This document shows, piece after piece, positions 3,096-57,369 of a DNA stretch of 61,136 nucleotides. Every line of letters begins with the position of its first letter. The first letter of the stretch is position 1. The notes beneath the pieces were generated by a model. It made no database searches, was not told the DNA's origin, and worked only from the letters and a program-made list of their open reading frames with translations. A program made the position numbers and the translations under genes. Source of the DNA: Rhodocyclales bacterium (GTDB lineage: Bacteria > Pseudomonadota > Gammaproteobacteria > Burkholderiales > Rhodocyclaceae); NCBI GenBank assembly GCA_016235165.1, contig JACRLX010000040.1, positions 10,203 to 71,338 of the forward strand, read 5' to 3'.

Positions 3096-5081
3096 CTACA
3101 CCTTGAAGCAGCGCACCATCTGCGTCGCACCGACGCGGGTTTCGCCGGGGTAGTCGCGTTTGCATTCCGCGCCGGCAAGCGGGCAGCGCGGATGGAAATG
3201 GCAGCCGGCCGGCGGATTGGCCGGTGACGGCATGTCGCCGGCCAGCTTCGCCGCATCGCCGCGCACGCCATCGACGCGCGGCACGGCCGCCAGCAGCGCC
3301 TGAGTGTAGGGGTGGCGCGGCGAGCGCAGCACCTCCTCCGCGCTGCCGTACTCGACCACGCGGCCTAGGTACATCACCGCCACGTCGCGGGCCAAGTAAT
3401 CCACCACGGCGATGTTGTGGGTGATGAACAGGTAGGCCAGTTGCAGCTCGCGCTGCAGATCGGCGAGCAGGTTGAGGATCTGTGCCTGCACCGAGACATC
3501 CAGCGCCGAGGTCGGCTCATCGCAGATCAGCACCTTGGGCTTCACCGCCAGGGCGCGGGCGATGGCGATGCGCTGGCGCTGACCGCCGGAGAACTCGTGC
3601 GGATAGCGATTGGCCATCTCGGCACGCAGGCCGACTTTTTCCAGCAGCTCGGCGACGCGCCGTGAAGTATCTCCACCCACCGTGCCCAGCGCGCGCATGC
3701 CCTCGGCGATGATCTCGCCGACGCGCAGGCGCGGATTGAGGGAAGCGAAGGGATCCTGGAATACCATCTGCATCTTGGCGCGCAGCGGCCGCAGCTCGGC
3801 AGCCGAGCGCGTGCTGATCTCCAGGCCGTCGAGCTGCACGCGGCCGGCCGTGGGCCGGATCAGTTGCAGCATGGCCTTGCCGGCGGTGGTCTTGCCGCAG
3901 CCGGACTCGCCGACCAGGGCCAGGGTGCGCCCGGGCATCAGCTGCAGCGACACGCCATCGACGGCGCGCACCGCACCCACCGCGCGCTGCAGGATGCCGC
4001 GGCGGATCGGGAAATGCACCTTGAGGTCCTCGACCGCCAGCAGGGGCTTGTCCGCGCCGCAAATCGCCGTGTCACCAGCGCCGACTCCCGCGGCAACCGC
4101 GGGCGCGGCATCGGCCAGGACGCAGCGCACGCGCTGGCCGTCGGCAAGTTCGCGCCAAGGCGGCGGCGCCGTGCGGCACTGCTCCGTCGCCTCGCCGCAG
4201 CGCTCGACGAAGCGGCAACCGGCGTACAGCGTATCGGCCGGCGGCACGCTGCCGGGAATGGTGGCCAGCGCCCCGCCACGCCGTTCGGCATCGGGCAGCG
4301 CGGCGAACAGCCGCACCGAGTAGGGATGCGCCGGACGGGCGAAGAAGGCCGCACGCGGCGCCTCCTCGACCAACTGGCCGGCATACATGACGCCGATGCG
4401 GTCGGCCATGCGCGCCACCACGCCGAGGTCATGGGTGATCAGCAGCAGCGCCATGTCTTGCGTGCGCCGCAACTCATCGAGTAAGTCCAGCACCTGGGCC
4501 TGGATGGTGACGTCGAGCGCCGTGGTCGGCTCGTCGGCGATCAGCAATCGCGGCGCGCCGGCCAGGGCAATGGCGATCATCACGCGCTGGCGCAGACCGC
4601 CGGAAAGCTGAAAGGGAAACTCGTCCAGCCGCCGTTTGGCGTCAGGGATACCGACCTGGTCGAGCAATTGTTCGGCACGCTCGCGCGCCTGCTCGCCGCG
4701 CAAGGCGGAATGCAGTTCCAGCGCCTCGACGATCTGGCGGCCGACGCTGAGCACCGGGTTGAGACTGGTCGCCGGCTCCTGGAAGATCATGCCGAGCTGG
4801 CCGCCGCGATACTCGCGCATGCTGGCCTCGGGCAGGGCCAGCAGCTCGCGGCCGGCGAAGCTGACCGTGCCGTCGGCGGCGCGCGCGCCGGGCGGCAGCA
4901 GGCGCATCAGGCCCAGCGCGGTCATCGACTTGCCGCAACCGGATTCGCCGAGCAGCGCATAGCATTCGCCGGCGGCGATGTCGAAGGAAATGCCGTCCAC
5001 CGGGCGGACCACGCCGGAGCCGCGCAGGGAGCCGCTTTGCGGGATGTGGATGGCGAGGTCGCGGACCTGGAGCAGGCTCAT
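3096..5081 (-). CDS. yejF: Dual-ATPase subunit of a peptide ABC importer (YejF-like)
   Basis: 661 residues with two complete ABC modules in one chain. Walker A motifs are GESGCGKS (45-52) and GESGCGKT (about 391-398), and each module has [12 protein letters not shown] and DEPT motifs. Each ends in the HPY oligopeptide-type tail, and the first has the Cys-rich segment seen in OppD/OppF-type proteins. The start at 5081 forms an ATGA overlap with the upstream gene. An ATG at 5096 is possible but less likely. It powers the YejB-YejE permease encoded upstream. The interdomain linker (about residues 331-340) is encoded by a copy of a dispersed 30-bp repeat, giving GVGAGDTAI. Confidence 0.92.
4061..4088 (-). 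repeat. Dispersed about-30-bp repeat (family 2), in-frame copy in yejF
   Basis: Reads, on the gene strand, GTCGGCGCTGGTGACACGG plus GCGATTTG. It matches the family consensus seen at 9838, 21373, 27659, 40447 and 56680. It is read in-frame as GVGAGDTAI in the linker between the two ATPase modules. Confidence 0.8.
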
Positions 5082-6565
5082 CGCAGAACTTCCCAAAACC
5101 CGCCCTTGGCCGGACCGGCCCGCCGCAACCGCCCGGATTCTCGCAGGCGGCGAATGGCTCGCTCAACCGCACTTTGTGACCTGCCCAGGACTGCCGCCAA
5201 TTCGGGAATGGAAAGTCCTGGTTGCGCCCGCAACAGCCGCAGAATTTCGTCGGGCGTTTTCCCCGGCGTTTTCCCCGGCGTTTTCCCCGGCGTTTTCCCC
5301 GGCGTTTTCCCCGGCGTTTTCCCCGGCGTTTTCTCCGGCGTTTTCTCCGACGTCTTCTCCGACGTCTTCTCCGACGTTTTCTCCGACGTTTTCTCCGGCA
5401 ACGCGAAGCTCATCACCACCGCCCCGGCAGGCACCGACAGCCGCGGCGGTTCATGCCCGGCATCCTGCATCAGACGGGCAATCTTCAGCGTGCCGCGCCC
5501 CCATGTCTCGATGATGCCACGCAGGTAAAAGACGCGGGCGATCATCGGGTTCCATGGGCGCGATTCATGCTCGCGGAACAAGGCTTCCGGCGTCAGGCCG
5601 AAATGCAGTTCGCCGGGGGAAATGATTTCCAGGCGATCATCATATAGCGCGACCCCGACCGCGCCACCGCCATTGGCATAATCACGATGGACGAAGGCAT
5701 TCGCCAGAGCCTCGCGCAAGGCCTCCACTGGCAGGAGCGGCGTGTCTTCACGCTCCATGCGGCCGGGGATGACGCGCCCTGCCACCGGCAGCGACTCGAT
5801 CAGGAAACGTTCGGCCCGACGCATCAGGGCAAAGGCGTTGCCACGGAACTGGCGGTTATCGAGAAACTCGTCGCGCGTCACGCCCCGGAAGCGGGCCACC
5901 TTGAGCAGGAGCTGGGGAAAGTCCGGCGCTTGTTCTTCCTCCTTGCAGAACAGCACCACGGCGGCTCGCGTCAGGCGATCCTTATCCGTCAGCAGGCCAA
6001 GCCCCCGCAGCATCTCCAGCGGATCGCGAGTGCCGGGATCGTCGATCCGGCCGCGACGTATCGCTTCCTCCAGCGTCAGGGCCAGCTCGCGCACATCCAA
6101 CCGTGCGATGTTCCAGCCATCCACCGGCTGATTCTCCCAACGCTCCACCGCGTGCGTTTCCTCCAAAAGGAGGCGCTGATAGTTCCCACGCGGCATGACC
6201 CGCGTCGTGTTGAGCACACGCTCGTAAGCCACGCCACGAAAAGCCACCGGCGCACGCGCCGAACGCTCGACGTTGACCAGCAGCAGTTCCTGTCCGGCGG
6301 GTAGTTCCACGCGCTGGACGGAAGGAAACATCGGCGGCTCGAATCCCTGGAAGTCCTGGGCGAGTTCCTCCAGCGTACGGTCGGAAACCGTCTGCCCCAG
6401 CAACTTTCCCGCCGGTGTCACGCCGAACAGCAAACGCCCGCCCGAGCCATTGCCGAAGGCGCACAGCGTTCGGCAGGCCCGCTCGCGCTCGGCCGTCGAT
6501 TTCTTGAATTCCAGGCGATTCGACTCGCCTTGCGCGACCAGCTTTCGCAGCGCCTGGAGCTTCAT
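5078..6565 (-). CDS. AlbA_2/HATPase-type ATP-binding regulator with C-terminal winged helix
   Basis: 495 residues. ATG at 6565 overlaps the yejE stop as ATGA, which fixes the start. The N-terminus (GESNRLEFKKS, residues about 13-23) is the AlbA_2-like domain of COG2865 proteins. A GHKL-like region (HRDYANGG, then DDRLEIISPG) follows. Residues 391-438 are twelve tetrapeptide repeats (EKTS x4, EKTP x2, GKTP x6). The last 55 residues are a winged helix-turn-helix (LSIPELAAVLGRSQSAVERAI). Family members are usually called putative transcriptional regulators and their ligand is unknown. Its position between permease and ATPase genes of one transporter, coupled at both ends, suggests co-expression with that transporter. 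Whether it regulates it is inference. Confidence 0.85.
   Translation of the reverse strand: MKLQALRKLVAQGESNRLEFKKSTAERERACRTLCAFGNGSGGRLLFGVTPAGKLLGQTVSDRTLEELAQDFQGFEPPMFPSVQRVELPAGQELLLVNVERSARAPVAFRGVAYERVLNTTRVMPRGNYQRLLLEETHAVERWENQPVDGWNIARLDVRELALTLEEAIRRGRIDDPGTRDPLEMLRGLGLLTDKDRLTRAAVVLFCKEEEQAPDFPQLLLKVARFRGVTRDEFLDNRQFRGNAFALMRRAERFLIESLPVAGRVIPGRMEREDTPLLPVEALREALANAFVHRDYANGGGAVGVALYDDRLEIISPGELHFGLTPEALFREHESRPWNPMIARVFYLRGIIETWGRGTLKIARLMQDAGHEPPRLSVPAGAVVMSFALPEKTSEKTSEKTSEKTSEKTPEKTPGKTPGKTPGKTPGKTPGKTPGKTPDEILRLLRAQPGLSIPELAAVLGRSQSAVERAIRRLRESGRLRRAGPAKGGFWEVLR
5252..5395 (-). repeat. 12-bp minisatellite, twelve tandem units, in coding sequence
   Basis: Twelve consecutive 12-bp units. 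On the plus strand the commonest reads CGGCGTTTTCCC and the variants carry CTC or GAC/GTC changes. Each unit adds four residues (GKTP, EKTP or EKTS) to the linker of the AlbA-type protein. The unit is a multiple of three, so gain or loss of copies keeps the frame. Confidence 0.95.
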
Positions 6566-7908
6566 TTCGCCAGCCTCGGATCGAAGGCGTCGCGCACCGC
6601 GTCGGCGAACAGGTTGGCGGCCAGCACCAGCGCGAACATGAAGGCGAAGGCGGCCGCCAGCGACCACCAGACCATGGGCTCGCGCGCCAGCTCCATGCGC
6701 GCGGTGTTGATCATGGTGCCGAAGGAGATGGTGCTCGGATCGACGCCGACGCCAACGTAAGACAGCACGGCCTCGGCCAGCACCAGGCCGGAGAAATCCA
6801 TCACCAGCGCGATCAGCACGATATGCATCAGGTTGGGCAGGATGTGGCGGCCCATGATCGCGAAACGGCCGACGCCGAAGGCCTGCGCCGCCTGGACGAA
6901 TTCGAGCTCGCGCAGCTTCAGCGTCTCGCCGCGCAAGAGGCGCGCCACGCCGGTCCAACTGGTCATGCCGAGGATCAGGCACAGCGCCAGCAGGCGCGCA
7001 TCGGCGCGTTCGGCCGAGCTGGCGAACCACTGCGGATGGGTGTCGATGATCACCTGCATCATCAGCACCGCGGCGGCGATCAGCAGCACGCCGGGGATCG
7101 AGGAGAGAGTGGTGTAAAGGTACTGGATCAGGTCATCGACCCAGCCGCCGACGTAGCCGGCAAGTATGCCCAGCAGCACCGCCAGCGGCAGCATCACCAG
7201 CGTGGTCAGGGTGCCGATCAAGAGGCCCGTGCGTATGCTCTTGAGCGACAGGTAGAGCACGTCCTGGCCGACCTTGTCGGTGCCGAAGACATGGTAGCCG
7301 CCGGCCAGCCCCGTCATCGCGCCGCCCAGCAGCAGGATGGGCAGCAGGGTGTACAGCACGGCATCGATGGCGATGCCGTCCGGCCGGCGCAGCCGGTGCA
7401 GCAGCACGCGCAGCAGCCACCAGAGCGCGAGGCCGACGGCGGTACCGAGCAACACGCGCTTGATGATGTCGCCGCCATGGGCGTCGAGATCCTGGCCCAG
7501 GTGCGCGCCGCCGTGCTTGAGGCGGGGAAAATCGCGCTGCGTGCCGTCGGTGCTGGTTTCCTTGGCGTAAAGGTGGGTCGCCAGCGGCGCCGAATAGGTT
7601 TTCTCCGGCCGGGTACGCAGGCCGACCAGCAGGGCATCGAGCGCGGAGTTTAGTTCTACGGCATAACGCACCGGCTCGCCCGGCTTGCCTTCCAGCCTGA
7701 CCCGGTAATGCAGGGTATCGAGCAGGCCGATGACGACGAACACCGCCAGCACCGTCGCCGCCGCCATCGCCACGCCGTCCCGCAGCACCCGGCCCCAGGC
7801 CGCGCGCAGGTTGTCCTCGCGTCGCGCCCAGAGCACCAACCCGATGATTGCCGCAATCAGCACGAAGAGCAGCGCATCCGACCAGAGGACGACGACCTGG
7901 AAACTCAT
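6562..7908 (-). CDS. yejE: Peptide ABC importer permease (YejE-like)
   Basis: 448 residues. Hydrophobic helices near the N-terminus are followed by a long extracytoplasmic segment (about 75-150) and a five-to-six-helix BPD_transp_1 domain. The cytoplasmic EAA loop is visible as EFVQAAQAFGVGRFAIMGRH. It forms the membrane channel with YejB for peptide uptake powered by YejF. It overlaps yejB by ATGA at its start and the AlbA-type gene by ATGA at its end. No periplasmic binding protein is encoded nearby, so the substrate cannot be read from context. Confidence 0.92.
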   Translation of the reverse strand: MSFQVVVLWSDALLFVLIAAIIGLVLWARREDNLRAAWGRVLRDGVAMAAATVLAVFVVIGLLDTLHYRVRLEGKPGEPVRYAVELNSALDALLVGLRTRPEKTYSAPLATHLYAKETSTDGTQRDFPRLKHGGAHLGQDLDAHGGDIIKRVLLGTAVGLALWWLLRVLLHRLRRPDGIAIDAVLYTLLPILLLGGAMTGLAGGYHVFGTDKVGQDVLYLSLKSIRTGLLIGTLTTLVMLPLAVLLGILAGYVGGWVDDLIQYLYTTLSSIPGVLLIAAAVLMMQVIIDTHPQWFASSAERADARLLALCLILGMTSWTGVARLLRGETLKLRELEFVQAAQAFGVGRFAIMGRHILPNLMHIVLIALVMDFSGLVLAEAVLSYVGVGVDPSTISFGTMINTARMELAREPMVWWSLAAAFAFMFALVLAANLFADAVRDAFDPRLAK

Positions 7909-8882
7909 TGCAGTCGTACCCTGGGATCGGCGATGGTGTAGGAAATGTCGGTCGCCAAGAGGCCGACGATGTAGAGCACCGAGCCGATGAAGACCATCGA
8001 GCGCACCACGGCGAAGTCCTGGGCGTTGATGGCGTCGATGGTGTAGCTACCCAGGCCCGGGATGCCGAAGAAGGACTCGGTCAGCAGGCTGCCCATGAAC
8101 AGCGTCGGGATCACCACCACCACGCCGGTGAGGATGGGGATCAGGGCATTGCGCAGCACGTGGCGGAACAGCACCACGCGCTCGGGCAGGCCCTTGGCGC
8201 GCGCCGTGCGCACGTAGTCGCGGGTGATCTCTTCGAGGAAGATGGTGCGGTACCAGCGCACTGACGAGCCTACGCCAGACACCACGTTAATAACCACCGG
8301 CAAGATGAGGAACTTGGTGGCGTCGAGGCCCGCGCCATAGCCGGAGATCGGCACCAGGTGCCAGACATTGGACACCAGCCACTGGCCACCGATGATGTAG
8401 AACAGTCCTGAAATGGACATCATCGCCACGCACAGCACCACGCCGGCGAAATCCAGCGCCGTGGCGCGAAAGAAGACCAGCAGCAGGGCAAAGGAAATCG
8501 CCACGAAGAGGCCGAGGATGAAGGTCGGCACGGCGATGGCGAGGCTGGGGCCCATGCGCGAGGTGATCTCGCGGGCGATGTCGCGGCCGTCGTCGGCGCG
8601 GCCGAAGTCGCCGACGAACATGCGCACCGACTTGCTGAACAGGATGGTGTCGGTCACCGCGGCGCTGCCCGCGGCCCTGGCATTCCACAGCAGCGGCTTG
8701 TCATAGCCACGCTCGGCCTTCCACTTCTCGATCGCCTCGGGCGTCACGCGCTTGACGCCGAGCTGCATGCGCGCCATGTCGTCGGGCGTATTGACGACGA
8801 AGAACAGGGCGAAGGTGAGCAGGTTCACCCCGATCAGGATCGGGATCGCATACAGCAGGCGGCGGACGATGTAGGCGAGCAT
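7905..8882 (-). CDS. yejB: Peptide ABC importer permease (YejB-like)
   Basis: 325 residues, OppB/DppB type. The N-terminus MLAYIVRRLLYAIPILIGVN is the classical first helix. A long periplasmic insertion follows and then the conserved permease core with an EAA-like loop (DYVRTARAKGLPERVVLFRH). YejB homologues have this extended N-terminal periplasmic segment, which DppB lacks. It starts 9 bp after the upstream gene and is coupled to yejE by an ATGA overlap. Confidence 0.92.
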   Translation of the reverse strand: MLAYIVRRLLYAIPILIGVNLLTFALFFVVNTPDDMARMQLGVKRVTPEAIEKWKAERGYDKPLLWNARAAGSAAVTDTILFSKSVRMFVGDFGRADDGRDIAREITSRMGPSLAIAVPTFILGLFVAISFALLLVFFRATALDFAGVVLCVAMMSISGLFYIIGGQWLVSNVWHLVPISGYGAGLDATKFLILPVVINVVSGVGSSVRWYRTIFLEEITRDYVRTARAKGLPERVVLFRHVLRNALIPILTGVVVVIPTLFMGSLLTESFFGIPGLGSYTIDAINAQDFAVVRSMVFIGSVLYIVGLLATDISYTIADPRVRLQ

Positions 8883-8891
8883 CGCTGCGGA

Positions 8892-9974
8892 TTATCGCCC
8901 CGCCGGAGCCGATCCGGGCAGCTCGCGGCCGAGCAGCATGGCGAGGAAATCGCCGCGCATGGCCGGCGTGAACTCATGGCGGCTGACGAACTCGGTCGCC
9001 GCACCGGGCCCGGCCCATTGCAAGCCCCAGATCGGCGCGATGCGGGTCGGCAGCATGGCGTAGCGCGCATCGCCGACGAAGCCGGGCTGGCGCCCGTCCT
9101 CCACGGCGAAGCCGTCGGAAAAGGCGCGGAAGCGCTCGATGTCGGCCAGCCGCCGCGCCTCGCCGGCGGCGATGCGACGCGCCGCCTCAGGCGCCAGCAG
9201 CGGCATCGCTTCGCCCGGGTAGTGGCGCAGCGTCAGCCCAAGGTGAAAGGCATCGGCCTGCACCACCCGTCCGTCATGGACATACAGCCCGCGCCAGAGC
9301 AGCAGATTGGCCAGCGTCGGCTTGACCGAAAGCTGCGCCGGCTGGTGGCCGCGCGTCCGTGCCAGTTCGCGCAGCGCCCCTTCGGCACGCTGCTGCTGGA
9401 AGGCGCTGAAACCCAAGTAGGCGGTGGCAAGCACCAAGCCGATCGCCACGGCGCGCGAATCGGCGCGCCGCAGGAAGAGCCACAGCGGCACGGCCAGCAG
9501 CAGCGTGAAGACGGGATCGAACACGGCGACCAGGTTCCACGCCGCCGGCTCGCGCGAGAACGGCAGCCAGAGGTGGGTGCCGTAGCTGGTGCAGGCATCG
9601 AGCAACGGGTGGGCGAAGTAGCCGAGCAGGCAGGAGGCATACAAGAGGCCGAAGCCGAGCCGGCGGCGCAACCATGGCCACAGCAGGCCGGCGACGACCA
9701 GGGCGCCGAGTGGCGCGAACAGCAGCGCGTGGGTGAAGTGGCGGTGGTAGTCGAGCACCAGCAGTGCATCCTCGCCGCTCTGGATGAAGGCGTCGATGTC
9801 GGGCGCAAGGCCGGCGATGGCGCCCGCGAGGGCCGCAGATCGCCGTGTCGTGAGCGCCGACTCTTGCGCCGTTTTCGGTGCCGCATCCGGTGCCAATTCG
9901 CGCGCCTGTCGGCGCAGCGCGGCAGCGCCGGCGGCAAAGCTCGCGCCCATCACGGCATGGGTCAGTGGGTCCAT
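8892..9974 (-). CDS. YdjM-like inner-membrane metal-dependent hydrolase family protein
   Basis: 360 residues. It begins MDPLTHAVMGASFA and carries the histidine/aspartate pattern of this family (DPLTH, APDID, YHRHFTHAL, HPLLD), which is thought to bind metal, with several membrane helices in between. Residues 190-360 form a less conserved soluble tail. E. coli YdjM is LexA-regulated and its biochemical role is unknown. It sits 9 bp from each neighbour in the yej operon. A copy of the family-2 repeat lies in-frame near residue 40, between the first histidine motif and the next helix. Confidence 0.8.
   Translation of the reverse strand: MDPLTHAVMGASFAAGAAALRRQARELAPDAAPKTAQESALTTRRSAALAGAIAGLAPDIDAFIQSGEDALLVLDYHRHFTHALLFAPLGALVVAGLLWPWLRRRLGFGLLYASCLLGYFAHPLLDACTSYGTHLWLPFSREPAAWNLVAVFDPVFTLLLAVPLWLFLRRADSRAVAIGLVLATAYLGFSAFQQQRAEGALRELARTRGHQPAQLSVKPTLANLLLWRGLYVHDGRVVQADAFHLGLTLRHYPGEAMPLLAPEAARRIAAGEARRLADIERFRAFSDGFAVEDGRQPGFVGDARYAMLPTRIAPIWGLQWAGPGAATEFVSRHEFTPAMRGDFLAMLLGRELPGSAPAGR
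9838..9863 (-). repeat. Dispersed about-30-bp repeat (family 2), in-frame copy in the ydjM-like gene
   Basis: On the gene strand the core GAGTCGGCGCTC is followed by ACGACACGGCGATCT. It differs from consensus mainly in the loop. It is translated in a different frame from the yejF copy (ESALTTRRS). Confidence 0.65.
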
Positions 9975-9983
9975 GCGGGAATC

Positions 9984-13183: not shown

Positions 13184-13210
13184 CTCGCCGTGGCGCCAGC
13201 GCCGACTTTC
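13184..13210 (+). repeat. Family-2 repeat, weak copy
   Basis: TCGCCGTGG followed by CGCCAGCGCCGACTTTC matches one full arm and part of the other arm of the 30-bp consensus. It is in the intergenic promoter region between the hypothetical gene at 13126 and the S4-domain gene. Confidence 0.5.
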
Positions 13211-19344: not shown

Positions 19345-20283
19345 ATGGAGTTCGTCGTCATCTCGCTCTTGAACGGCATCACCTACGGCCTGCTGCTGTT
19401 CATGCTTTCCAGCGGCCTGACGCTGATTTTCAGCATGATGGGCATCCTCAATTTCGCCCATGCCAGCTTTTACATGCTGGGCGCCTATTTCGCCTACCAG
19501 ATCAGTACCTGGACGGGTTTCTGGCCCGGCCTGATCGTGGCTCCGCTGCTGGTCGGCGCGGTCGGGGCATTGGTCGAGCGCTACGGCCTGCGCCGTGCCC
19601 ACCGTTACGGCCATGTCGCCGAACTGCTGTTTACCTTCGGCCTCGCCTTCGTGGTCGAGGAACTGGTGCACCTGATCTGGGGCAAAACCTCGGTCGACTA
19701 CAAGATTCCCGCCGAACTCGACGGCACCCTGTTTTCCCTGTTCGACACCGACTTCCCGATCTACAAGGGCTTCATGATGCTGGTCTCGGTCGGCATGCTG
19801 GTCGCCCTCTACGCCCTGCTGACGCGCACCCGCATCGGCCTCATCATCCAGGCCGCGCTGACCAAGCCGGACATGGTCGAAGCGCTCGGCCACAACGTGC
19901 CGCGCATTTTCATGCTGGTGTTCGGCGGCGGCACCGCGCTGGCCGGGCTGGCCGGCGTGATCGGCGGCAATGCCTTCATCACCGAGCCCGGCATGGCGGC
20001 AGCGGTGGGCAGCATCGTCTTCGTCATCGTCGTCGTCGGCGGCCTCGGCTCGCTGGGCGGCGCCTTCATCGCCTCGCTGCTGATCGGTTGCATCCAGACC
20101 TTCTCGGTGGCGCTGTCGATTTCCATCACCGATGTCTTCGCCCTGGTCGGCATTGCCCTGCCCGAAGGCTCGCAGGTGGCGCGCCTGACCATCACCCAGC
20201 TGGCGCCGGTGCTGCCCTACCTGCTGATGGTGGCGATCCTGATTTTCCGCCCGCGCGGCCTGATGGGCTCACGCGAGTCATGA
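19345..20283 (+). CDS. livH: Branched-chain amino acid-type ABC transporter permease
   Basis: 312 residues, about eight membrane helices. The N-terminus EFVVISLLNGITYGLLLFML and the GLTLIFSMMGILNFAHASFYMLG segment are LivH signatures. A cytoplasmic ATPase-contact loop is present (ALTKPDMVEALGHNVPRIFML). It pairs with LivM in the inner membrane. The stop codon overlaps the livM start as ATGA. Confidence 0.93.
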   Translation: MEFVVISLLNGITYGLLLFMLSSGLTLIFSMMGILNFAHASFYMLGAYFAYQISTWTGFWPGLIVAPLLVGAVGALVERYGLRRAHRYGHVAELLFTFGLAFVVEELVHLIWGKTSVDYKIPAELDGTLFSLFDTDFPIYKGFMMLVSVGMLVALYALLTRTRIGLIIQAALTKPDMVEALGHNVPRIFMLVFGGGTALAGLAGVIGGNAFITEPGMAAAVGSIVFVIVVVGGLGSLGGAFIASLLIGCIQTFSVALSISITDVFALVGIALPEGSQVARLTITQLAPVLPYLLMVAILIFRPRGLMGSRES

Positions 20284-21557
20284 GCCCGGCGATCCTCAAT
20301 CGTGGCCGCCTGGCGGTCTGGGGTGGCTGCCTGGCCCTGGCCCTCGCCCTGCCGCTGGTACTCAAGAGCGGCTTCATCATCTCGCTGCTGTGCCAGATCG
20401 GCATCATGGCGGTGTTCTCGCTTTCCTACAACATGCTGCTCGGCCAGACCGGGCTGCTTTCCTTCGGCCACGCGGTGTACTACGGCCTCGGCGCCTTCGC
20501 CACGATGCACCTGCTCAATGCCATTGGCAAGGGCGGCGGCCCGCTGACCACCGCACTGCTGCCCCTCGCCGGCGGCCTGGCCGGCATGGTGGCGGGCGTG
20601 GTGCTGGGCTACGTGACGACGCGCAAGGCCGGCACCACCTTCGCCATGATCACGCTCGGCATCGGCGAACTGGTCGCCGCCTGCTCGCTGATGTTCCCTG
20701 CCGTGTTCGGCGGCGAAGGTGGCGTGTCGGGCAACCGGGTGGTCGGCAAGGAGGCCTTCCTCGGCTTCACCTGGGGCCCGCAGGTCGAGATGTACGGCCT
20801 CATCGTGCTCTGGGCCTTCGCCTGCACCGTGGCCATGTTCGCGCTGACGCAGACGCCGCTCGGTCGCATGGCCAACGCCGTGCGCGACAACCCCGAGCGC
20901 GCCGAGTTCGTCGGCTACGACACCGAGCGCGTGCGCTTCCTGATGGTTATCCTGTCCGGCTTCTTCGCCGGCATCGCCGGCGGGCTCTCGGCGCTCAACT
21001 ACGAGATCGTCACCGCCGAGACGCTCAATGCCCATACCTCGGGCATCGTGCTGCTGATCGCCTTCGTCGGCGGCATCGGCTTCTTCTACGGCCCGATCAT
21101 CGGCGCCATCCTCGTCACCGTGATGCAGATCGTGATCGGCGGCATGACCCACGCCTGGCTGCTCTACTTCGGCCTGTTCTTCCTCTTCATGGTGCTGGTG
21201 GCGCCGGGCGGCATCGCCAGCCTGATCGCCGTCCAGCGCAACCTGTGGCAGGCCGGGCTGCTCGGCCGCATGCTGCCGCACTATCTTGCCGTGACGCCGC
21301 CGGTGTTGGTACTGCTGACCGGGCTGGTGGGACTGATCGAACTCGGCTATGCCCTGCTCAGCGGCGACGCAGGAGTCGGCGCTGGCGACACGGCGACCAG
21401 GGTGCTGGGCATGCAGTTGCATCTCGGCGCGCCCGGCCCCTGGCTTACTGCCCTGGCCATCACCGGCATCGGCCTGATCCTGACACGCTGGATCGGCGGC
21501 CGCCTCGGCGTGGCCTGGAACGCCACGCTGGCGACGCTGTACGGAGACAAGGCATGA
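20280..21557 (+). CDS. livM: Branched-chain amino acid-type ABC transporter permease
   Basis: 425 residues, longer than most LivM proteins because of extra C-terminal helices. The family core is intact: FSLSYNMLLGQTGLLSFGHA, TLGIGELVAACS and the ATPase-contact loop AVRDNPERAEFVGYD. The C-terminal extension (about 325-425) has two or three further hydrophobic segments. Between them, residues about 365-373 (GVGAGDTAT) are encoded by a copy of the family-2 repeat, in the same frame as in yejF. ATGA overlaps join it to livH and livG. Confidence 0.93.
   Translation: MSPAILNRGRLAVWGGCLALALALPLVLKSGFIISLLCQIGIMAVFSLSYNMLLGQTGLLSFGHAVYYGLGAFATMHLLNAIGKGGGPLTTALLPLAGGLAGMVAGVVLGYVTTRKAGTTFAMITLGIGELVAACSLMFPAVFGGEGGVSGNRVVGKEAFLGFTWGPQVEMYGLIVLWAFACTVAMFALTQTPLGRMANAVRDNPERAEFVGYDTERVRFLMVILSGFFAGIAGGLSALNYEIVTAETLNAHTSGIVLLIAFVGGIGFFYGPIIGAILVTVMQIVIGGMTHAWLLYFGLFFLFMVLVAPGGIASLIAVQRNLWQAGLLGRMLPHYLAVTPPVLVLLTGLVGLIELGYALLSGDAGVGAGDTATRVLGMQLHLGAPGPWLTALAITGIGLILTRWIGGRLGVAWNATLATLYGDKA
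21373..21398 (+). repeat. Family-2 repeat, in-frame copy in livM
   Basis: GAGTCGGCGCTGGCGACACG followed by GCGACC. It matches consensus at nearly every position except the 3' arm end and is translated as GVGAGDTAT in a loop near the LivM C-terminus. Confidence 0.8.
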
Positions 21558-25185: not shown

Positions 25186-25252
25186 GTCACACCGGCGCAC
25201 GCCGGTGTCCAGGCCAGCCGCACGACTGGATTCCGGCGTTCGCCGGAATGAC
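25186..25252. repeat. Dispersed inverted-repeat element, copy D (complete)
   Basis: The left half (25186-25212) has ACCGGCG and CGCCGGT arms. The right half (25226-25252) is CTGGATTCCGGCG to CGCCGGAATGAC. It occupies most of the gap between the FadB-like and thiolase genes, inside the catabolic cluster. Confidence 0.85.
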
Positions 25253-25286
25253 GGCCATTTGCGCCAACTGAATTCTGGAGACTCAC

Positions 25287-26465
<1,179 letters not shown>

Positions 26466-27658: not shown

Positions 27659-27688
27659 AAATCGCCGTATCACCAGCGCCGACTTTCA
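27659..27688 (+). repeat. Family-2 repeat, intergenic copy
   Basis: GAAATCGCCGTATCACCAGC continuing CGCCGACTTTC. This is the best full-length copy: arms GAAA-TCG-CG and CG-CGA-TTTC can pair with one bulge and one mismatch around a 9-nt loop. It lies between the thioesterase and MDR genes. Confidence 0.8.
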
Positions 27689-29813: not shown

Positions 29814-29878
29814 GTCATTCCGGGCTTGCCCCGGAATCCAGATGGTGCGTACTGGATTCCCGCTTTCGCGGGAATGAC
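29814..29878. repeat. Dispersed inverted-repeat element, copy E (complete)
   Basis: The left half (29814-29841) is GTCATTCCGGGC to CCGGAATCCAG. The right half (29852-29878) is CTGGATTCCCGC to GCGGGAATGAC. It fills the gap between the phosphotransferase and acyl-CoA dehydrogenase genes. Confidence 0.85.
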
Positions 29879-29926
29879 GAACCTAAGCGGCTTCGTAACC
29901 CCGCTTAAACCACCTGAGGAAACACC

Positions 29927-34459: not shown

Positions 34460-34552
34460 GCAGCTCTCCATCGCCCGCCATTCGCGACACCCGCCTATGC
34501 CAACGGCACAGGCCACGCGGTATCGGTCGTCGCGCTTTGTCTGAACCCGCCG

Positions 34553-34577
34553 CGCCGTGGCGCCGGCGCCGACTCTT
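34553..34577 (-). repeat. Family-2 repeat, partial copy
   Basis: CCGTGGCGCC followed by GGCGCCGACTCTT matches the 3' arm of the consensus. It lies about 10 bases beyond the stop of the minus-strand CBS gene, at a convergent junction. Confidence 0.5.
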
Positions 34578-36963: not shown

Positions 36964-38151
36964 TTAGATCATTTCCCAGATCGTGGTGATGCCCTGGCCG
37001 CCGCCGATGCACATGGTGGCAAGGCAGTACTTGCTGCCGACGCGCCTGGCTTCGTAGAGGGCCTTGGTGATGATCACCGCACCGGAGGCGCCGATCGGGT
37101 GCCCGATGGCGATGGCACCGCCGTTCGGGTTGGTCTTCGCCGGGTCGAGGCCAAGCACCTTGGCCACGGACAACGACTGCGCGGCAAAGGCTTCGTTGGA
37201 CTCGACCACGCCGATGTCATCGAGCTTGAGCCCGGCCTTGGCCAGCGCAATGCGGGTCGAGGGGATCGGGCCTTCGCCCATGACGTCGTTGGGCACGCCG
37301 CCGATGCCGTAGGCGACCAGGCGGGCCATCGCCTTGTGGCCGCCGGCGGCGGCCTTGGCGGCGTCGGCCAGCACCAGGAAGCCGGCGCCGTCATTGATGC
37401 CGGAGGCATTGCCGGCGGTGACGGTGCCGGCCTTGTCGAAGGCGGGCTTCATCTTGGCCAGGGTTTCCATGGTGGTGGCGGGCTTGACGTGCTCGTCGGT
37501 GTCGAACACCACATCGCCCTTGCGCGTCTTGAGGGTAATCGGGACGATCTGTTCCTTGAAGTAGCCGGCGGCGATCGCGGCGGCGGCGCGGCGATGCGAT
37601 TCGCAGGCGAATTCGTCCTGCATTTCGCGTGTCAGGCCGTGCTTCTTGGCCAGGTTCTCGGCAGTAATGCCCATGTGGCCCGCGCCGAAAGGATCGGTCA
37701 GGGCGCAAACCATGGCATCGAGCAGCTTGGTGTCGCCCATGCGGGCGCCGGTACGCATGGCCGCCGACAGGTAGGCGCCGCGCGACATGACTTCGACGCC
37801 GCCGCCGATCGCGAAATCGGCGTCGCCAAGCAGGATGGCCTGGGCCGAATTGACGATGGCCTGCTGTGCCGAACCGCACAGCCGGTTGACCTGGAAGGCC
37901 ACCGATTCCATGGTCATGCCACCCTGAATCGTGGCGTTGCGATGCACGTAGGCGTAGCGGCCTTCGGTCGGCACCACGTTGCCGACGGTGGCGAAGGTGA
38001 TGGCCTTGGGATCGACGCCGGAGCGGGCGATGGCCTCCTTGATCACCAGGCCGCCCAGGTCGGCCGGTTCCATGCCTGCCAGGGAACCATTGAAAGTGCC
38101 AACCGCGGAACGCGCGGCGCTGAGTACTACGACTTCTCTCTTGTCAGCCAT
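36964..38151 (-). CDS. Acetyl-CoA C-acetyltransferase (biosynthetic-type thiolase)
   Basis: 395 residues. The nucleophile is C92 in NRLCGSAQQA. His is in GHPIGASGAVI and the second Cys in CIGGGQGITTIWE. The segment order resembles PhaA/BktB or short-chain acetyl-CoA acetyltransferases. It may condense acetyl-CoA or cleave short 3-oxoacyl-CoA. No phaB/phaC gene is in the window. It ends in a strong terminator and starts 25 bp from the CobD/CbiB-like gene stop, suggesting an operon with it. Confidence 0.9.
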   Translation of the reverse strand: MADKREVVVLSAARSAVGTFNGSLAGMEPADLGGLVIKEAIARSGVDPKAITFATVGNVVPTEGRYAYVHRNATIQGGMTMESVAFQVNRLCGSAQQAIVNSAQAILLGDADFAIGGGVEVMSRGAYLSAAMRTGARMGDTKLLDAMVCALTDPFGAGHMGITAENLAKKHGLTREMQDEFACESHRRAAAAIAAGYFKEQIVPITLKTRKGDVVFDTDEHVKPATTMETLAKMKPAFDKAGTVTAGNASGINDGAGFLVLADAAKAAAGGHKAMARLVAYGIGGVPNDVMGEGPIPSTRIALAKAGLKLDDIGVVESNEAFAAQSLSVAKVLGLDPAKTNPNGGAIAIGHPIGASGAVIITKALYEARRVGSKYCLATMCIGGGQGITTIWEMI

Positions 38152-49895: not shown

Positions 49896-52002
<2,107 letters not shown>

Positions 52003-52038
52003 AAGTCTCCCCCTTGGAATTGATGGACTAAACATGTA

Positions 52039-52066
52039 ATTTTATCACCACATCGAAACCGGACAA
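52039..52066 (-). promoter_or_regulatory. Probable promoter of hppA
   Basis: On the minus strand TTGTCC (52061-52066), 16 bp, TAAAAT (52039-52044), about 30 bp before the hppA start codon. It is in the 273-bp region shared with the divergent PFK gene. Confidence 0.5.
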
Positions 52067-52275
52067 CAGACCGCGCCGGGTTTTGTTGCTTGAAATCTAA
52101 TGAGATTCAGTGGTTCCTTCCGCACCTCCAAGGCACCGCTTGGCGAATTAAGATTGTTTGATAGGTGGATCGGTGAGCTGCATGGGACGATCGGGAATAG
52201 ACCGCTATAGTCTGGTTTTTCACGGCACCACGCGAAACGACACCCACAACCGGAATCAGGGAAAGGAAAACATCG

Positions 52276-53496
52276 ATGCCACAGGGAAAAGTACTGGTCG
52301 CCCAAGGCGGCGGCCCCACCGCCGTCATCAATCAATCCATGGCGGGCGTGGTGCTCGAAGCCCGCAAGTTCCGCAATGTCGAGCTGGTCTACGGCGCCTA
52401 CCATGGCGTGCGCGGCATCGTCGAGGAGGAGTTTCTCGACCTGACCCAGGAAACCAGCCACAACATCGAAATGGTGGCCTGCACCCCCTCCTCCGCGCTG
52501 GGCTCGACGCGCGACAAGCCCGACCTCAAATATTGCCAGGAGATTTTCAAGGTTCTCAAGGCGCATGGCATTGGGTACTTTTTCTACATCGGCGGCAACG
52601 ATTCCTCCGATACCGTGCGCATCGTCAGCGAAGAGGCGCGCCGCGCCGGATACCCGCTGCGCTGCATACACATCCCGAAAACAATCGACAACGATTTGGT
52701 GGGCAACGACCACACTCCCGGATTTCCCTCGGCCGCGCGTTTCGTTTCGCAGGCTTTTATGGGCGCCAACCTGGACAACGCGGCACTTACCGGGGTGTAC
52801 CTCGCCGTAGTGATGGGCCGTCACGCCGGCTTCCTCACCGCCGCGTCCGCACTCGGCAAGAAGTTCCCCGATGACGGCCCGCACCTGATCTACCTGCCCG
52901 AGCGCGTATTCAATGTCGAGAAGTTCCTGTTCGACGTCAAGGCCACCTATGAGAAGTACGGGCGCTGCGTGATTGCAGCATCGGAGGGCATCCATGACGA
53001 AAAGGGCACGCCGATCATCACCCAGCTGGCCTCCGAGATCGAGCGCGACGCTCATGGCAATGTCCAGCTCTCCGGTACCGGCGCGCTGGCCGACCTGCTT
53101 TGTGACCAGATCAAGGAAAAGCTCGGCATCAAACGTGTGCGCGGCGATACCTTCGGCTATCTGCAACGTTCCTTCATGGGATGCGTTTCGGATGTCGATC
53201 AGCGCGAAGCGCGGGAAGTCGGCGAGAAGGCCGTCCAATATGCGATGTGGGGCGACATGGACGGCTCGGTCGCGATCAAGCGCACCGGATTTTATTCAGT
53301 CGATTACCAGCTGGTTCCCCTGGAATCGGTCGCCGGCAAGACGCGGGTGATGGAAGACGAGTTCATCGCCGCCAGCGGCACCGATGTCACCGACGCCTTC
53401 CGCCTCTATTTGCGTCCCCTGCTGGGTTCCGGCATGCCGGATGCCTACCGGCTGCGCCTCAACAAGGTCGCCAAAATCCTGAAGCAAGCTCCCTGA
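52276..53496 (+). CDS. 6-phosphofructokinase, pyrophosphate-dependent type
   Basis: 406 residues. Substrate loop GGGPTAVINQ, and the phosphoryl-donor motifs are GGNDS (106-110) and PKTIDND (134-140). ATP-PFKs have GGDGS with GTIDND. The Asn-Asp and Lys variants fit the PPi-using subgroup, which makes glycolysis at this step reversible. A PPi-PFK next to hppA is known from methanotrophs, and here the two genes are divergent. Donor specificity is inference. A possible -10 (TATAGT at 52206-52211) precedes it. Confidence 0.85.
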   Translation: MPQGKVLVAQGGGPTAVINQSMAGVVLEARKFRNVELVYGAYHGVRGIVEEEFLDLTQETSHNIEMVACTPSSALGSTRDKPDLKYCQEIFKVLKAHGIGYFFYIGGNDSSDTVRIVSEEARRAGYPLRCIHIPKTIDNDLVGNDHTPGFPSAARFVSQAFMGANLDNAALTGVYLAVVMGRHAGFLTAASALGKKFPDDGPHLIYLPERVFNVEKFLFDVKATYEKYGRCVIAASEGIHDEKGTPIITQLASEIERDAHGNVQLSGTGALADLLCDQIKEKLGIKRVRGDTFGYLQRSFMGCVSDVDQREAREVGEKAVQYAMWGDMDGSVAIKRTGFYSVDYQLVPLESVAGKTRVMEDEFIAASGTDVTDAFRLYLRPLLGSGMPDAYRLRLNKVAKILKQAP

Positions 53497-53513
53497 TCTG
53501 CGTTGCGACCGAC

Positions 53514-54623
53514 TCAGTCGCCGAAGCTGATACCGATGTCGCGCCCGGTCTGTAGCGTGTCGCTGTCCAGCGGCACGCCCTTCATGCGCCCGGCGACTTC
53601 CTCCAGCGCAACATAGTTTACGTTGGGAAAACCCAGTGCGACCATGATTCCCGACTGACCTTCGTCGAGTGCACGCACCGCCGCGCTGCCAAAGCGCATC
53701 GCCGCCAGCCGATCGAAGGAAGTCGGACTGCCGCCACGCAGCAGGTGGCCGAGCACCACAGTACGCACATCCTTGCCGGTCTTGTCGGCCAGCACGCGGG
53801 CGACACGCTCGCCCACGCCGCCCAGGCGTTCGGCATGTCCGATCTCGGCGGCTGCGAGTATCTCGCGATGGCCATGGATGGGCTCGGCACCCTCTGCCAC
53901 CATTACCAGCGAGTACATGCGGCCCTCGCTGTCGCGGGCGCGAATCTTGGCCGCCACCTTGTCGATGTCGTACCGGATTTCGGGAATCAGGATCGCGTGG
54001 GCGCTGCCGGAAATGCCCGCATGCAAGGCGATCCAGCCAGCGTAACGCCCCATGACTTCGACCACCATCACCCGCTGGTGGCTTTCCGCGGTGCTGTGCA
54101 GGCGGTCGAGGCACTCGGTGGCAAACGCGACCGCAGTGTCGAAGCCGAAGGTGGTGAAGGTCTTGTCCAGATCGTTGTCGATGGTCTTGGGCACGCCGAC
54201 CACGCGCAAGCCTTTCTGATGCAGCGCGTTGGCGATGGTCAGCGAACCGTCACCCCCGATCGAAACCAGCGCATCGAGTTCCTTGCGCGCGAAGAATTCG
54301 AGGATTTCGTCGGACCGATCGGTGTCGCGCATCGTGCCGTCGGGCATTTTCATCGGGAAATGCAGCGGGTTTCCCTTGTTGGTGGTACCCAGTATGGTTC
54401 CACCCAGATGACCGATTCCCCGCACCCGCTCGCGGGTCAGCCGATACACGCCGCCTTCGGGATAACGCTCCGGAAACATGATGCCGTTGAAGCCGTCGCG
54501 AATGCCGTAGCATTCCCAGCCACGGTTCGCGGCGGCAATCACCACGGAGCGAATCACTGCATTCAAGCCGGGAGCATCGCCGCCGCCGGTACAGACCGCG
54601 ATGCGTCGAATGTGACTGGCCAT
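53514..54623 (-). CDS. 6-phosphofructokinase, second paralogue (ATP-type donor loop)
   Basis: 369 residues. Contains GGGDAPGLNAVIRS, GGDGS (123-127) and PKTIDND (145-151). The first motif is the ATP-type form, the second has the Lys typical of PPi enzymes, as in mixed group III PFKs. It is likely ATP-dependent, but donor use cannot be settled by sequence. It is convergent with the PPi-type gene (17 bp between) and is last in the minus-strand adk operon, 36 bp after adk. Confidence 0.87.
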   Translation of the reverse strand: MASHIRRIAVCTGGGDAPGLNAVIRSVVIAAANRGWECYGIRDGFNGIMFPERYPEGGVYRLTRERVRGIGHLGGTILGTTNKGNPLHFPMKMPDGTMRDTDRSDEILEFFARKELDALVSIGGDGSLTIANALHQKGLRVVGVPKTIDNDLDKTFTTFGFDTAVAFATECLDRLHSTAESHQRVMVVEVMGRYAGWIALHAGISGSAHAILIPEIRYDIDKVAAKIRARDSEGRMYSLVMVAEGAEPIHGHREILAAAEIGHAERLGGVGERVARVLADKTGKDVRTVVLGHLLRGGSPTSFDRLAAMRFGSAAVRALDEGQSGIMVALGFPNVNYVALEEVAGRMKGVPLDSDTLQTGRDIGISFGD

Positions 54624-54659
54624 GACTCCTCCTTTACCGTCTGCGGAAAGCGGAATACC

Positions 54660-55331
<672 letters not shown>

Positions 55332-55368
55332 TTATGCATCACAATGGCTTATAAATCTTTCAGACAAC

Positions 55369-56142
55369 TTACGCCGATTCCTTCGCGGCGTCAAAAAAAC
55401 GCCGCACGCGTTCCAGATCCTCCGCGGTATCAACTCCAGGCGCCGGCGCATGAGCGGAAGCGACGACTGTAATCGCGTAGCCATGCCACAAGGCGCGCAA
55501 CTGCTCCAGGGACTCGATCTGCTCAAGAGGCGACACCGCCAACGACCCATAGTCGCGCAAAAAGCCGACCCGATAGGCATACAGGCCGATATGTCGTTGG
55601 GCACCGAGGCGATTGGGCAGTTCGGTCCGCTTCGAGGCAAAGCAGTCGCGATCCCAGGGAATCGGGGCACGACTGAAGTACAAGGCACGGCCGCTCGCGT
55701 CGCATACCACCTTGACGACATTGGGATTGAAAAACTCGTCGACCGAGCTCAGCGCATGCGCTGCGGTAGCCATCGCGGCATTCGCATCCGCTTCGAGCGC
55801 GAATGCCACGGCATCGATCAGTGACGGGTCCAGCAGCGGTTCATCGCCCTGGACATTGACCACGATTTCGTCGCCATTCCAGCCCATCGCCCGCGCCACT
55901 TCGGCAATCCGGTCGGTGCCGCTGAGATGGTCCGCCCGCGTCATGACAGCTTCGTAGCCCGACGCGCGCACCGTGGCGGCCACTCGCTCGTCGTCGGTCG
56001 CCACGCAAACGCTCCTCGCTCGCGAGCGCATCGCCGCCTCGACCACACGCACGATCATCGGCTTGCCGGCGATATCCGCGAGCGGCTTCCCCGGCAGCCG
56101 GGTCGATGCATAGCGCGCCGGAACGACAATCCGGTAGGACAT
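55369..56142 (-). CDS. kdsB: 3-deoxy-manno-octulosonate cytidylyltransferase
   Basis: 257 residues. The nucleotide loop is [27 protein letters not shown] and the C-terminal [15 protein letters not shown] are standard KdsB. It activates Kdo as CMP-Kdo for lipopolysaccharide. Its ATG shares one base with the stop of the Trm112-like gene (TGATG). Confidence 0.96.
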
Positions 56143-56318
56143 CAGGCCTCGTCGGCGCCAAGCGGACGGGCCTCGTCCTCGAGCATCACCGGAATGTCGT
56201 CCTTGACCGGATAGGCCAGTTTGCAACCCTTGCAAACGAGTTCGGCAGCCGATGCGCGATTTTCCAACGGGCCTTTGCAGACGGGACAGACCAGGATTTC
56301 AAGCAGGCGGACATCCAT
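56142..56318 (-). CDS. Trm112-family / UPF0434 small zinc-ribbon protein
   Basis: 58 residues, too short to be found by length filters. It begins [19 protein letters not shown] and continues with [20 protein letters not shown], so four cysteines form a zinc ribbon (CPVC and CKGC). This is the UPF0434/YcaR family, normally between lpxK and kdsB. The start overlaps the 3' end of lpxK by 20 bp. Function unknown, relatives of eukaryotic Trm112 activate methyltransferases. Confidence 0.93.
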
Positions 56319-57369
56319 TCAGCTTCTCCAGTACGAATTCGCCAAGATCGGGGCTCAGGCGGGCGGCAACGGGCAGCACCCAGACCGGCAGGGACAATTT
56401 GAGCGACGCCAATTTTACGGCATCCTTTTCCGTGGTCAGGATCGCGTCGCCGCCAAAATCGAGATCGGCGGGCGTAAACCAATGATGGTCGGGGAAGGCA
56501 TGTTCCGCGAATTCGACGCCGATCGCCCGCAGATGCGCAAAAAACCGCTCGGGAGCCCCGATGCCTGCGACCGCGTGCAATTCGAGGCCAGCCAGCCCGG
56601 CAACCGTCTGAACGCCCCGCGTTTGATCCAGCGAACGGAACTCGCGTCCTTCCAGCGTCATGCGAAACAAGGGTTGCCCAAAAGTCGGCGCTGGCAGGAC
56701 GGCGATTTCGTTGAGCACCAAGGCATCGACCGAAGCCAGGCGCGATACCGGTTCGCGCAGCGGCCCCGCAGGCAGGCACCAGCCGTTCCATACGCCGCGA
56801 GAGTCGAACACCGCGAGCTCCACATCGCGCACCAGCCGATAGTGCTGCAAGCCGTCATCGGCAAGAATCACGTCGCACTCCGGATCGGCCGCAAGCAGGG
56901 CGCGGCCCGCCGCCACGCGATCCCGGCCGACAAACACCGGGCATCCACAGTTGCGTGCCAGCAGCAAGGCTTCGTCGCCGAACACTTCGGGGGCTCCATT
57001 CATCGGCACTTGCACCGGCCGCGGTGCGTTGCCCCGGTAGCCACGGGTAATTATCCCGGGGCGGCGGCCTTTCCTTTTCAGGGCGTTTGCCAAATGAATA
57101 ACCAGCGGTGTCTTGCCGCTGCCACCCACCGTGATGTTGCCGACCACGACAACCGGCACCGGCAGCCTGGTCGCGCGCAGCAAGCCGTACCGATAAGCGG
57201 CCCGGCGCAATGCGGAAAGTTCGCGAAATACCAGCGAAAAGGGATAGAGCAAACAGGCCGTGGCACCGCGCTGCCGCCAGACGGCGGCAAATCCGCCGTC
57301 AGCGCTGGGCCTGCTGGGTGGCAAAGGAGATATGCGACAGCCCGGCCTGCTGCGCGGCCTGCATGACAT
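56299..57369 (-). CDS. lpxK: Tetraacyldisaccharide 4'-kinase
   Basis: 356 residues in the frame used. P-loop [11 protein letters not shown] (77-87), the LpxK motif DDGLQHYRL and the C-terminal TTEKDAVKL are present. It adds the 4'-phosphate of lipid A at the inner membrane. The start is doubtful: from 57369 it overlaps exbD by 71 bp and no ATG or GTG occurs near the expected site (just before [15 protein letters not shown]). A TTG nearer 57310 may be used. A family-2 repeat copy lies inside (56680-56709). Confidence 0.92.
56680..56709 (+). repeat. Family-2 repeat, copy inside lpxK
   Basis: AAAAGTCGGCGCTGGCAGGA followed by CGGCGATTTC. Both arms match. The loop differs from the consensus by a 4-base change. 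lpxK reads it in antisense, giving [11 protein letters not shown] in a region between conserved motifs. Confidence 0.65.

Follow-up and report, generated by a model that had tools for sequence, protein, structure and literature searches.

A long two-part DNA word with lineage-specific spellings in Sulfuritalea and its relatives, a candidate DNA uptake signal

The stretch of DNA analysed here (hereafter the window) comprises 61,136 bp of a Rhodocyclales genome (assembly GCA_016235165.1, contig JACRLX010000040.1, positions 10,203 to 71,338) and contains a dispersed repeat of about 30 bp that sits between genes as well as inside conserved ones, partly in frame. This raises the question of what kind of element can occupy both kinds of places. 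A sequence-only reading of the window had likened the repeat to the protein-invading palindromic elements of Rickettsia and had suggested an undescribed mobile family. We arrived at another answer. The copies in the window are forms of one bipartite motif, RRRAGTCGGCGCYGG-YGRN-ACGGCGA, with an information content of about 34 bits, and it is well shown that this is a sequence-specific DNA recognition motif in a clade centred on Sulfuritalea. By analogy with the DNA uptake sequences (DUS) and uptake signal sequences (USS) of other bacteria, the repeat probably acts as a DNA uptake signal for natural transformation.

The host of the window belongs to the genus that the Genome Taxonomy Database (GTDB) assigns to Sulfuritalea (Rhodocyclales). 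The repeat was present at all eight places named in the sequence-only reading, with 23-base cores lying inside, or at most 1 base away from, the spans given there (Table 1). Within the window, the 30-mer at up to 3 mismatches matched twice, compared with 0 matches in 100 dinucleotide shuffles. A search of the whole genome with the consensus had also been proposed, and it returned copy numbers far above chance. In the 4.47 Mb of the host, the 28-mer consensus at up to 3 mismatches gave 142 matches and the core AGTCGGCGCYGGNNNNACGGCGA at up to 1 mismatch gave 558 (276 forward, 282 reverse), each against 0 for the reversed pattern. At the same stringency, the core occurred in 31 of 31 genomes of the genus with 22 to 571 copies per genome and a reversed control of 0 in all 31, while 30 genomes from elsewhere in the family and order contained 0 to 2 copies each (reversed control 0 to 1). 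Most of the compared genomes are draft assemblies, and genes were called with a simple caller made for this analysis.

The anatomy of the motif was derived from 147 copies with up to 3 mismatches, taken from stretches that had not been selected for the motif. The informative positions run from −3 to about +22 and together carry 34.3 bits. In order, the consensus consists of RRR, AGTCGGCG, C(Y)GG, a spacer YGRN of looser conservation and ACGGCG(A). What had been described as the loop CTGGTGACA is only in part a loop, as it consists of a conserved CTGG and four looser bases, YGRN. Even this spacer is partly constrained, its second base being nearly fixed in intergenic copies. Because the conserved part is so sharply bounded, the outer GAA..TTC arms are weak.

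For the measurement of constraint, orthologous sites were located by their flanks alone, so that identity within the element could be measured whether or not the motif was present. Since the yejF region supplies the bulk of the orthologue pairs, values per site were computed as well. Some of the named records counted as genus relatives in the comparisons of motif loss and of gapped sites given below may belong to neighbouring genera, and the scan that supplied them yielded at least the records listed. Between genes, the two arms were 0.918 and 0.948 identical, compared with 0.578 for the spacer and 0.63 to 0.73 for the adjacent flanks (61 pairs, 20 copies), and random intergenic places showed 0.59 to 0.74 throughout (44 pairs). 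Inside genes, the arms reached 0.848 and 0.863, the spacer 0.652 and the bases adjoining the element 0.47 to 0.61 (645 pairs from 49 copies, many of them in yejF). Evaluated per site, the arms were better conserved than the near flanks at all 12 of the intergenic sites and at 12 of the 15 genic ones. In copies that encode VGAGDTA, the silent positions 3, 6 and 18 were 0.89 to 0.90 identical, as opposed to 0.64 to 0.66 at third positions of the flanks; the variable silent position 9 reached 0.48 and position 21 reached 0.73 (5 sites). The motif is maintained in place and changed by substitution rather than insertion, as is typical of DUS and USS.

The spelling of the motif depends on the lineage. 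A T at position 3 (AGTTGG) was found in 224, 247 and 251 exact copies in the genomes G001, G015 and G027, respectively, and in 0 to 4 copies in the other 28 genomes of the genus. This C-to-T change occurred in place, with T in 82 of 84 orthologous pairs (8 of 9 per site), and genomes with the C spelling kept C in 441 of 447 pairs. A further genome, G061, tends towards T at position 6, where AGTCGGTG is the majority form (12 copies in 60 kb). Lineage-specific dialects that replace each other genome-wide are a second trait shared with DUS and USS.

One lineage has nearly lost the motif, although its genome, G016, is 99% complete. When compared at a flank identity of about 0.80, ordinary genomes showed an arm identity of 0.893 (620 pairs, 125 copies). 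The low-copy genomes G025 and G021 were down to 0.726 and 0.731, respectively, and G016 to 0.586, about the level of its near flank at 0.582 (31 pairs, 3 still motif-like). The values per site were 0.927 for ordinary genomes (60 sites), 0.752 for G025 and 0.739 for G021 (4 sites each), and 0.608 for G016 with a near flank of 0.594 (13 sites). At sites comparable in G016 and ordinary genomes, G016 was lower in 4 of 5 cases. In this lineage the constraint is gone and the copies are decaying in place. No replacement dialect was found in 334 kb of G016. The genome is instead enriched for CAGAGGCGCAGAG words, which lie outside the AAAGTC frame.

Beyond the genus, the motif at up to 2 mismatches was abundant in seven of the 68 genera sampled with 150 genomes (134 to 796 copies per genome) and weaker in two more, represented by G076 (57 copies) and G067 (33 copies). 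The remaining genera gave 0 to 37 matches with a reversed control of 0 to 27, and G109 (37 vs 9) and G094 (28 vs 7) were mildly above their controls. An RpoB tree built from 23 genomes placed all 13 genomes with at least 50 copies inside one group of 16 (support 100/99), whose low-copy members are G016, G067 and G136. The tree omits G061, G091, G153 and G032 (no rpoB match), G078 and G109 (partial matches), and G079.

The nearest genome outside this group, G063, represents a sister genus and carries a word of its own. An unprompted word count over 400 kb recovered AAAGTCAGTC, with 60 exact copies in about 420 kb. The full word, AAAGTCAGTC...ACGGCG, follows the pattern AAAGTC-N12-ACGGCG with the exact spacing of the Sulfuritalea motif and a different middle. 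At up to 2 mismatches, 400 kb contained 76 copies of it (190 per Mb), a density similar to that in Sulfuritalea. In a cross-check, it occurred twice in 563 kb of Sulfuritalea, and the Sulfuritalea word gave 8 weak matches in the G063 stretches. A shared coding region, which from a reading of its sequence appears to be isoleucyl-tRNA synthetase-like, contains AGTCAGTCC..ACGGTG in G063 and AGTCGGCGC..ACGGTG in a record of the Sulfuritalea scan without any gap, and neither form in G016. In another gene, a single linker carries the G063 word one way round (L490:19360) and, in a record of the Sulfuritalea scan (L090), the Sulfuritalea word the other way round, with no change in length. In the more distant genus of G071, a single match to AAAGTC-N12-ACGGCG at up to 1 mismatch turned up in 106 kb. 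Small samples from eight other outside genomes, amounting to about 71 kb, gave no match. The G071 loci, L492 to L495 among them, also contain a very abundant unrelated repeat with CAAGGCCGGGGTCAGGCCGCAAGG words, counted 22 to 28 times each in the same 106 kb.

With regards to placement, 131 of 266 copies were intergenic, compared with 11 to 18% of random sites in the same loci, most of which had been fetched for motif presence. Intergenic copies tend to lie near gene ends, at a median distance of 38 bp (n = 116) against 128 bp for gene starts (n = 98). Among the 132 fully genic copies, 76 use the same-strand frame 2 (VGAGDTA) and 29 the antisense frame 1 (AVxPAPTF), whereas the other four frames account for 2 to 13 copies each. 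Both peptides suit linkers. This permissive placement, with an intergenic excess and two dominant frames out of six, is a third trait in common with DUS and USS. A fourth is the strong over-representation of a short word that is scattered across the genome on both strands.

A word that is kept in place, is explained by neither protein nor RNA, switches genome-wide and decays on loss needs a recogniser with an evolving preference. The known systems that behave in this way are the uptake signals of Neisseriaceae and Pasteurellaceae, and we therefore propose an uptake signal whose receptor is probably a pilin. We infer that recognition is by a transformation receptor and that the copies are driven through the genome as follows. 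On free DNA, the word AAAGTC(GGCGCYGG)NNNNACGGCG would be the target of a DNA receptor at the cell surface, presumably a minor pilin, and DNA of kin would be preferentially imported and then recombined. Copies would accumulate and be kept where proteins and transcription units tolerate them, namely in 3'-intergenic DNA and in flexible linkers in GAG- or PAPT-encoding frames. A shift in receptor preference would lead to copies being rewritten in place and hence to dialects, and once recognition is lost, the copies would decay. As for the machinery, a ComEC domain was found in 30 of 30 genomes and the prepilin signal (N_methyl) in 13 of 13, motif-free relatives included. The family PF11773 is that of ComGE rather than ComP; it matched 0 of 30 genomes and is uninformative on ComP.

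Self-DNA tags of the DUS/USS type are stated to be known in only two families, Neisseriaceae and Pasteurellaceae (PMC12616744). The DUS of Neisseriaceae resemble the motif in their many dispersed copies, in permissive genic and intergenic places, and in a lineage-specific spelling that differs genome-wide, their dialects being consistent with phylogeny (PMC3630211). However, DUS are 10 to 12 nt long, read by ComP and often arranged as inverted terminator pairs, whereas the motif is bipartite, 24 to 26 nt long with a loose 4-nt spacer, rarely paired, unrelated in sequence and found in bacteria of a different order, and no ComP was identified among the matches listed in our prepilin survey. The USS of Pasteurellaceae are likewise self-DNA tags with dialects (PMC12616744, PMC2346458) and favour one orientation in reading frames (PMC2346458), as does the motif, but they have a 9-nt core with extended flanks, belong to Gammaproteobacteria and are unrelated in sequence (PMC12616744, PMC2346458).

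Several observations weigh against an uptake signal. The motif is longer than DUS and USS. ComEC is non-discriminating, as it is also present in motif-free genomes and in G016, and no prepilin orthologue group followed the motif among the matches listed (76 predicted prepilins from 7 of 13 genomes, one of them partly covered). DUS and USS are more abundant in their genomes than the motif is here. The 67 exact copies of one sub-form in the single-contig genome G002 were spaced no more evenly than random (coefficient of variation 0.925 vs 0.979, P 0.34). Inverted pairs were rare: among 628 copies, overlapping loci included, neighbours lay within 100 bp of each other in 2 cases, once in inverted orientation, and one further inverted pair, 3 bp apart, appeared among the matches listed for the T-dialect scan. 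Terminator pairs of the neisserial type, which are common in Neisseria and not defining, are hence not a feature of the motif. Genic arms were no better conserved than random genic places (flat at 0.82 to 0.86); as the bases adjoining genic copies reach only 0.47 to 0.61, these copies lie in poorly conserved stretches in which the arms equal average coding DNA. When 78 G063 copies were tried, 27 had both flanks matched by translated search, and a Sulfuritalea motif lay within 90 bp of 3 in the same and 3 in the opposite orientation, so that most sites are unshared between the two. Carriage by mobile elements also counts on this side, since one contig of a viral collection (L294, with integrase, methylase and ParB) holds 6 copies in 13.4 kb. 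In the open-access literature, none of the listed matches for Rhodocyclaceae combined with transformation mentions Rhodocyclaceae, and the matches listed include no report of transformation in the Sulfuritalea-centred clade.

Viral-collection stretches with an exact core numbered 43 and contained 27 further copies in 424 kb, which is equivalent to 64 per Mb, compared with 128 per Mb in named loci counted alike. Mobile elements of the Sulfuritalea-centred clade may wear the tag of their host. Two further viral scans (24 and 37 stretches) were set aside because tens of matches were estimated from chance alone. The listed plasmid matches (15 of 81) all had E values of at least 0.4. Aside from these counts, the viral-collection contigs L294, L263 and L290 each contain 4 to 6 motif copies in 8 to 15 kb.

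The main rival to the uptake signal is a site for another sequence-specific DNA-binding protein, for example in chromosome organisation, as a recombination hot spot or as a self mark against a nuclease, with each copy under selection. The constraint, the dialects and the in-place changes fit any recogniser, and the arms show a partial dyad symmetry (ARTCGSCG half-sites) such as a dimer would use. Nevertheless, the full listing of the G002 sub-form gave 34 forward and 33 reverse exact copies with the strands interspersed, which offers no orientation map and led us to reject a polarity along the replichores. Chi and KOPS, by comparison, are oriented along the chromosome. The near-loss in G016 would moreover be odd for a core chromosome function, and permissive placement together with wholesale dialect switches is the DUS pattern. 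On balance, we regard such a protein as a serious but rather unlikely explanation.

If the motif is indeed an uptake signal, it would represent a third, independently evolved self-DNA uptake code, located in Rhodocyclales, and we lean slightly towards this view. The code would consist of a long word in two parts, spelled in at least four dialects (AGTCGGCGCTGG, AGTTGGCGCTGG, AGTCGGTGCTGG and AAAGTCAGTC, each followed by ACGGCG at a fixed spacing) in at least eight genera, and the conserved ends with a swapped middle would record the evolution of a receptor in lineages that keep, switch or lose the code. A third origin would make the evolution of such codes comparable. As close species occur in all three states, drive versus benefit and the coevolution of receptor and motif, both questions of long standing, can be tested directly. 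Should the reader be something other than a transformation receptor, a clade-wide word carrying about 34 bits that is rewritten in place at comparable sites, and genome-wide by count, would still need an explanation, and it is also an easy lineage marker. A search of the open-access literature returned no paper in which "DNA uptake sequence" and Rhodocyclales occur together, and a description elsewhere is possible. The matches listed for Sulfuritalea with repeat and uptake were unrelated, judged by title and the start of the abstract, and those listed for the motif letters mostly concerned a short 7-mer, the 11-mer matches being on unrelated subjects.

A very small mobile repeat that inserts into genes and intergenic DNA, mobilised in trans by a transposase, would explain why nearly identical copies of about 26 bp are dispersed by the hundreds, sharply bordered and in part inside genes. 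It would also explain why copies differ between close relatives at variable linkers, e.g., between G001 and G015. Rickettsia palindromic elements (RPE) and the small dispersed repeats (SDR) of cyanobacteria are such short repeats in frame inside conserved proteins, which they lengthen by insertion. The motif, in contrast, replaces existing linker sequence, with no clean insertion. In YejF, the block of 26 codons around it aligned without gaps in 22 of 23 orthologues, including the 3 that lack the motif, and one orthologue was short of a single codon; the motif-encoded residues are therefore replacements rather than additions, and a protein-invading element that adds residues does not agree with this alignment. 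At a second yejF linker, several lineages have the motif, and others have an unrelated linker of varying length without an element-sized insertion. In a separate observation, this kind of variable linker in locus L187 (genome G010) is occupied by a different repeat-like stretch, TTCGACAAGCTCAGGGCGAACGG, in the place where other species hold the motif, and the linker therefore seems to collect repeats.

Across 765 orthologous pairs with a flank identity of at least 0.75, no clean empty site was seen, and the element was gapped in only 2, by deletions of 83 and about 48 bp, both in G016. In the subset at 0.78 or above, the motif was retained in 58 of 59 intergenic and 376 of 477 genic pairs; the 101 genic losses comprised 58 gap-free substitutions, 40 partial gaps and 3 gaps of at least 15, none of the last a clean excision. 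Orthologous copies are conserved and change their spelling together, which also argues against mobility, as do the uncompensated hairpin pairs described below. Repetitive extragenic palindromic (REP) elements, their REPIN forms and CGTC-tagged repeats are likewise dispersed repeats of 20 to 40 bp, sometimes within genes, but REPs are stem-loops tagged with GTAG or CGTC, the GTAG types being associated with RAYT transposases (PMC3733652). Neither a GTAG nor a CGTC tag was found in the motif consensus, which also lacks a compensated stem. The Y1 or REP-associated transposase domain PF01797 matched in 20 of 30 genomes and was missing from seven motif-rich ones (G018, G072, G132, G177, G117, G153 and G098), and an engine of the RAYT/Y1 type was rejected on this ground. 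Thus, of the earlier suggestion of an undescribed mobile family, the family itself stands, being genome-wide and also in frame in conserved genes, whereas a mobile, invading palindrome is improbable. Cyanobacterial HIP1 is similar as a clade-wide, very abundant genomic word of debated function, yet it is an 8-nt perfect palindrome connected with methyltransferases, unlike the long, asymmetric, bipartite motif with its dialects (PMC4390886).

It is very improbable that conservation acts on the peptide VGAGDTA or on an RNA hairpin instead of on the DNA itself. The preference for the VGAGDTA frame would fit a peptide, but about half of the copies are intergenic with conserved arms, others are antisense or in other frames, and the silent positions 3, 6 and 18 are constrained. 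A hairpin would agree with a weak fold on one strand and with C-to-T dialect changes that leave G-U pairs. The arms had been described as imperfectly self-complementary and able to fold, which applies marginally to the written strand (z = −1.5 as RNA and −1.95 as DNA against shuffles), while the other strand folds no better than shuffles and the dyad symmetry is only partial. In a hand-chosen hairpin of 7 pairs, the 147 copies showed 134 broken cells, 63 one-sided changes that still pair and 5 compensating double changes. Rfam gave 0 matches in the window at gathering scores. With a weak one-stranded fold, no Rfam match in the window and uncompensated pairs, a hairpin or RNA function was rejected. 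Finally, GC-rich words are common in such genomes and weak matches do occur outside the motif-bearing genera, but the empty shuffles, the absence of the reversed pattern at up to 1 mismatch from all 31 genus genomes and the presence of the motif in stretches of G117 and G177 with 51 to 52% GC leave an artefact of composition or codon usage a negligible chance.

The copies in the window are summarized in Table 1. The reading frames noted earlier were correct (VGAGDTA in yejF and livM, another frame in the ydjM-like gene, antisense in lpxK), and the gene identities have Pfam support.

Table 1. Motif copies in the window, with their state at orthologous sites.
Feature	Position	Strand	Observation
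Core AGTCGGCGCTGGTGACACGGCGA in yejF linker (gene 3096-5081, -)	4064..4086	-	Read VGAGDTA; 23 genus orthologues aligned, 3 without motif, no insertion
Core with 2 mismatches in YdjM-domain gene (8892-9974, -)	9840..9862	-	Same strand, frame reads QESALTTRRSA; present in G018
Core AGTCGGCGCTGGCGCCACGGCGA between divergent genes as called here (inside 313-aa open reading frame without Pfam match)	13185..13207	-	Conserved in G018
Core in livM-like permease gene (20280-21557, +)	21374..21396	+	Read VGAGDTA; present in G018, G017, G005; T-dialect in G027; absent in G030, G006
Intergenic core AGTCGGCGCTGGTGATACGGCGA	27662..27684	-	Core conserved in G018, G006, G017, G005, flanks diverged; T-dialect in G027
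Intergenic core with 1 mismatch, between convergent genes	34552..34574	-	No orthologous pair obtained
Intergenic core AGTCGGCGCCGGCGACACGGCGA, convergent genes, directly after stop codon	40450..40472	+	Kept in G006, G017, G005, G008; split by about 60 bp in G018
Core AGTCGGCGCTGGCAGGACGGCGA antisense in lpxK (56299-57369, -)	56683..56705	+	Kept in G018
Doubtful motif-like site, 2 mismatches, in Fe/Mn superoxide dismutase gene (60131-60682, +)	60346..60368	+	No orthologous pair obtained

The Gly-rich stretch encoded at the doubtful last site may be ancestral to superoxide dismutase.

Further repeats were noted in the window. The gene adjoining yejF contains a 12-bp unit, GGCGTTTTCCCC, arranged head-to-tail at 5217-5420, which appears with 12 overlapping 72-nt members in the repeat list and gives the protein a tandem repeat of four residues. 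A second, unrelated palindrome family, GTCATTCCGGCGNNCGCCGGAATCCAG, occupies positions 4-27, 124-147, 531-560, 25189-25253 and 29852-29881, and the alignments of relatives break near two of these places. A perfect inverted match of 28 bp connects positions 26411-26438 and 36991-37018, possibly as a conserved motif of paralogous genes.

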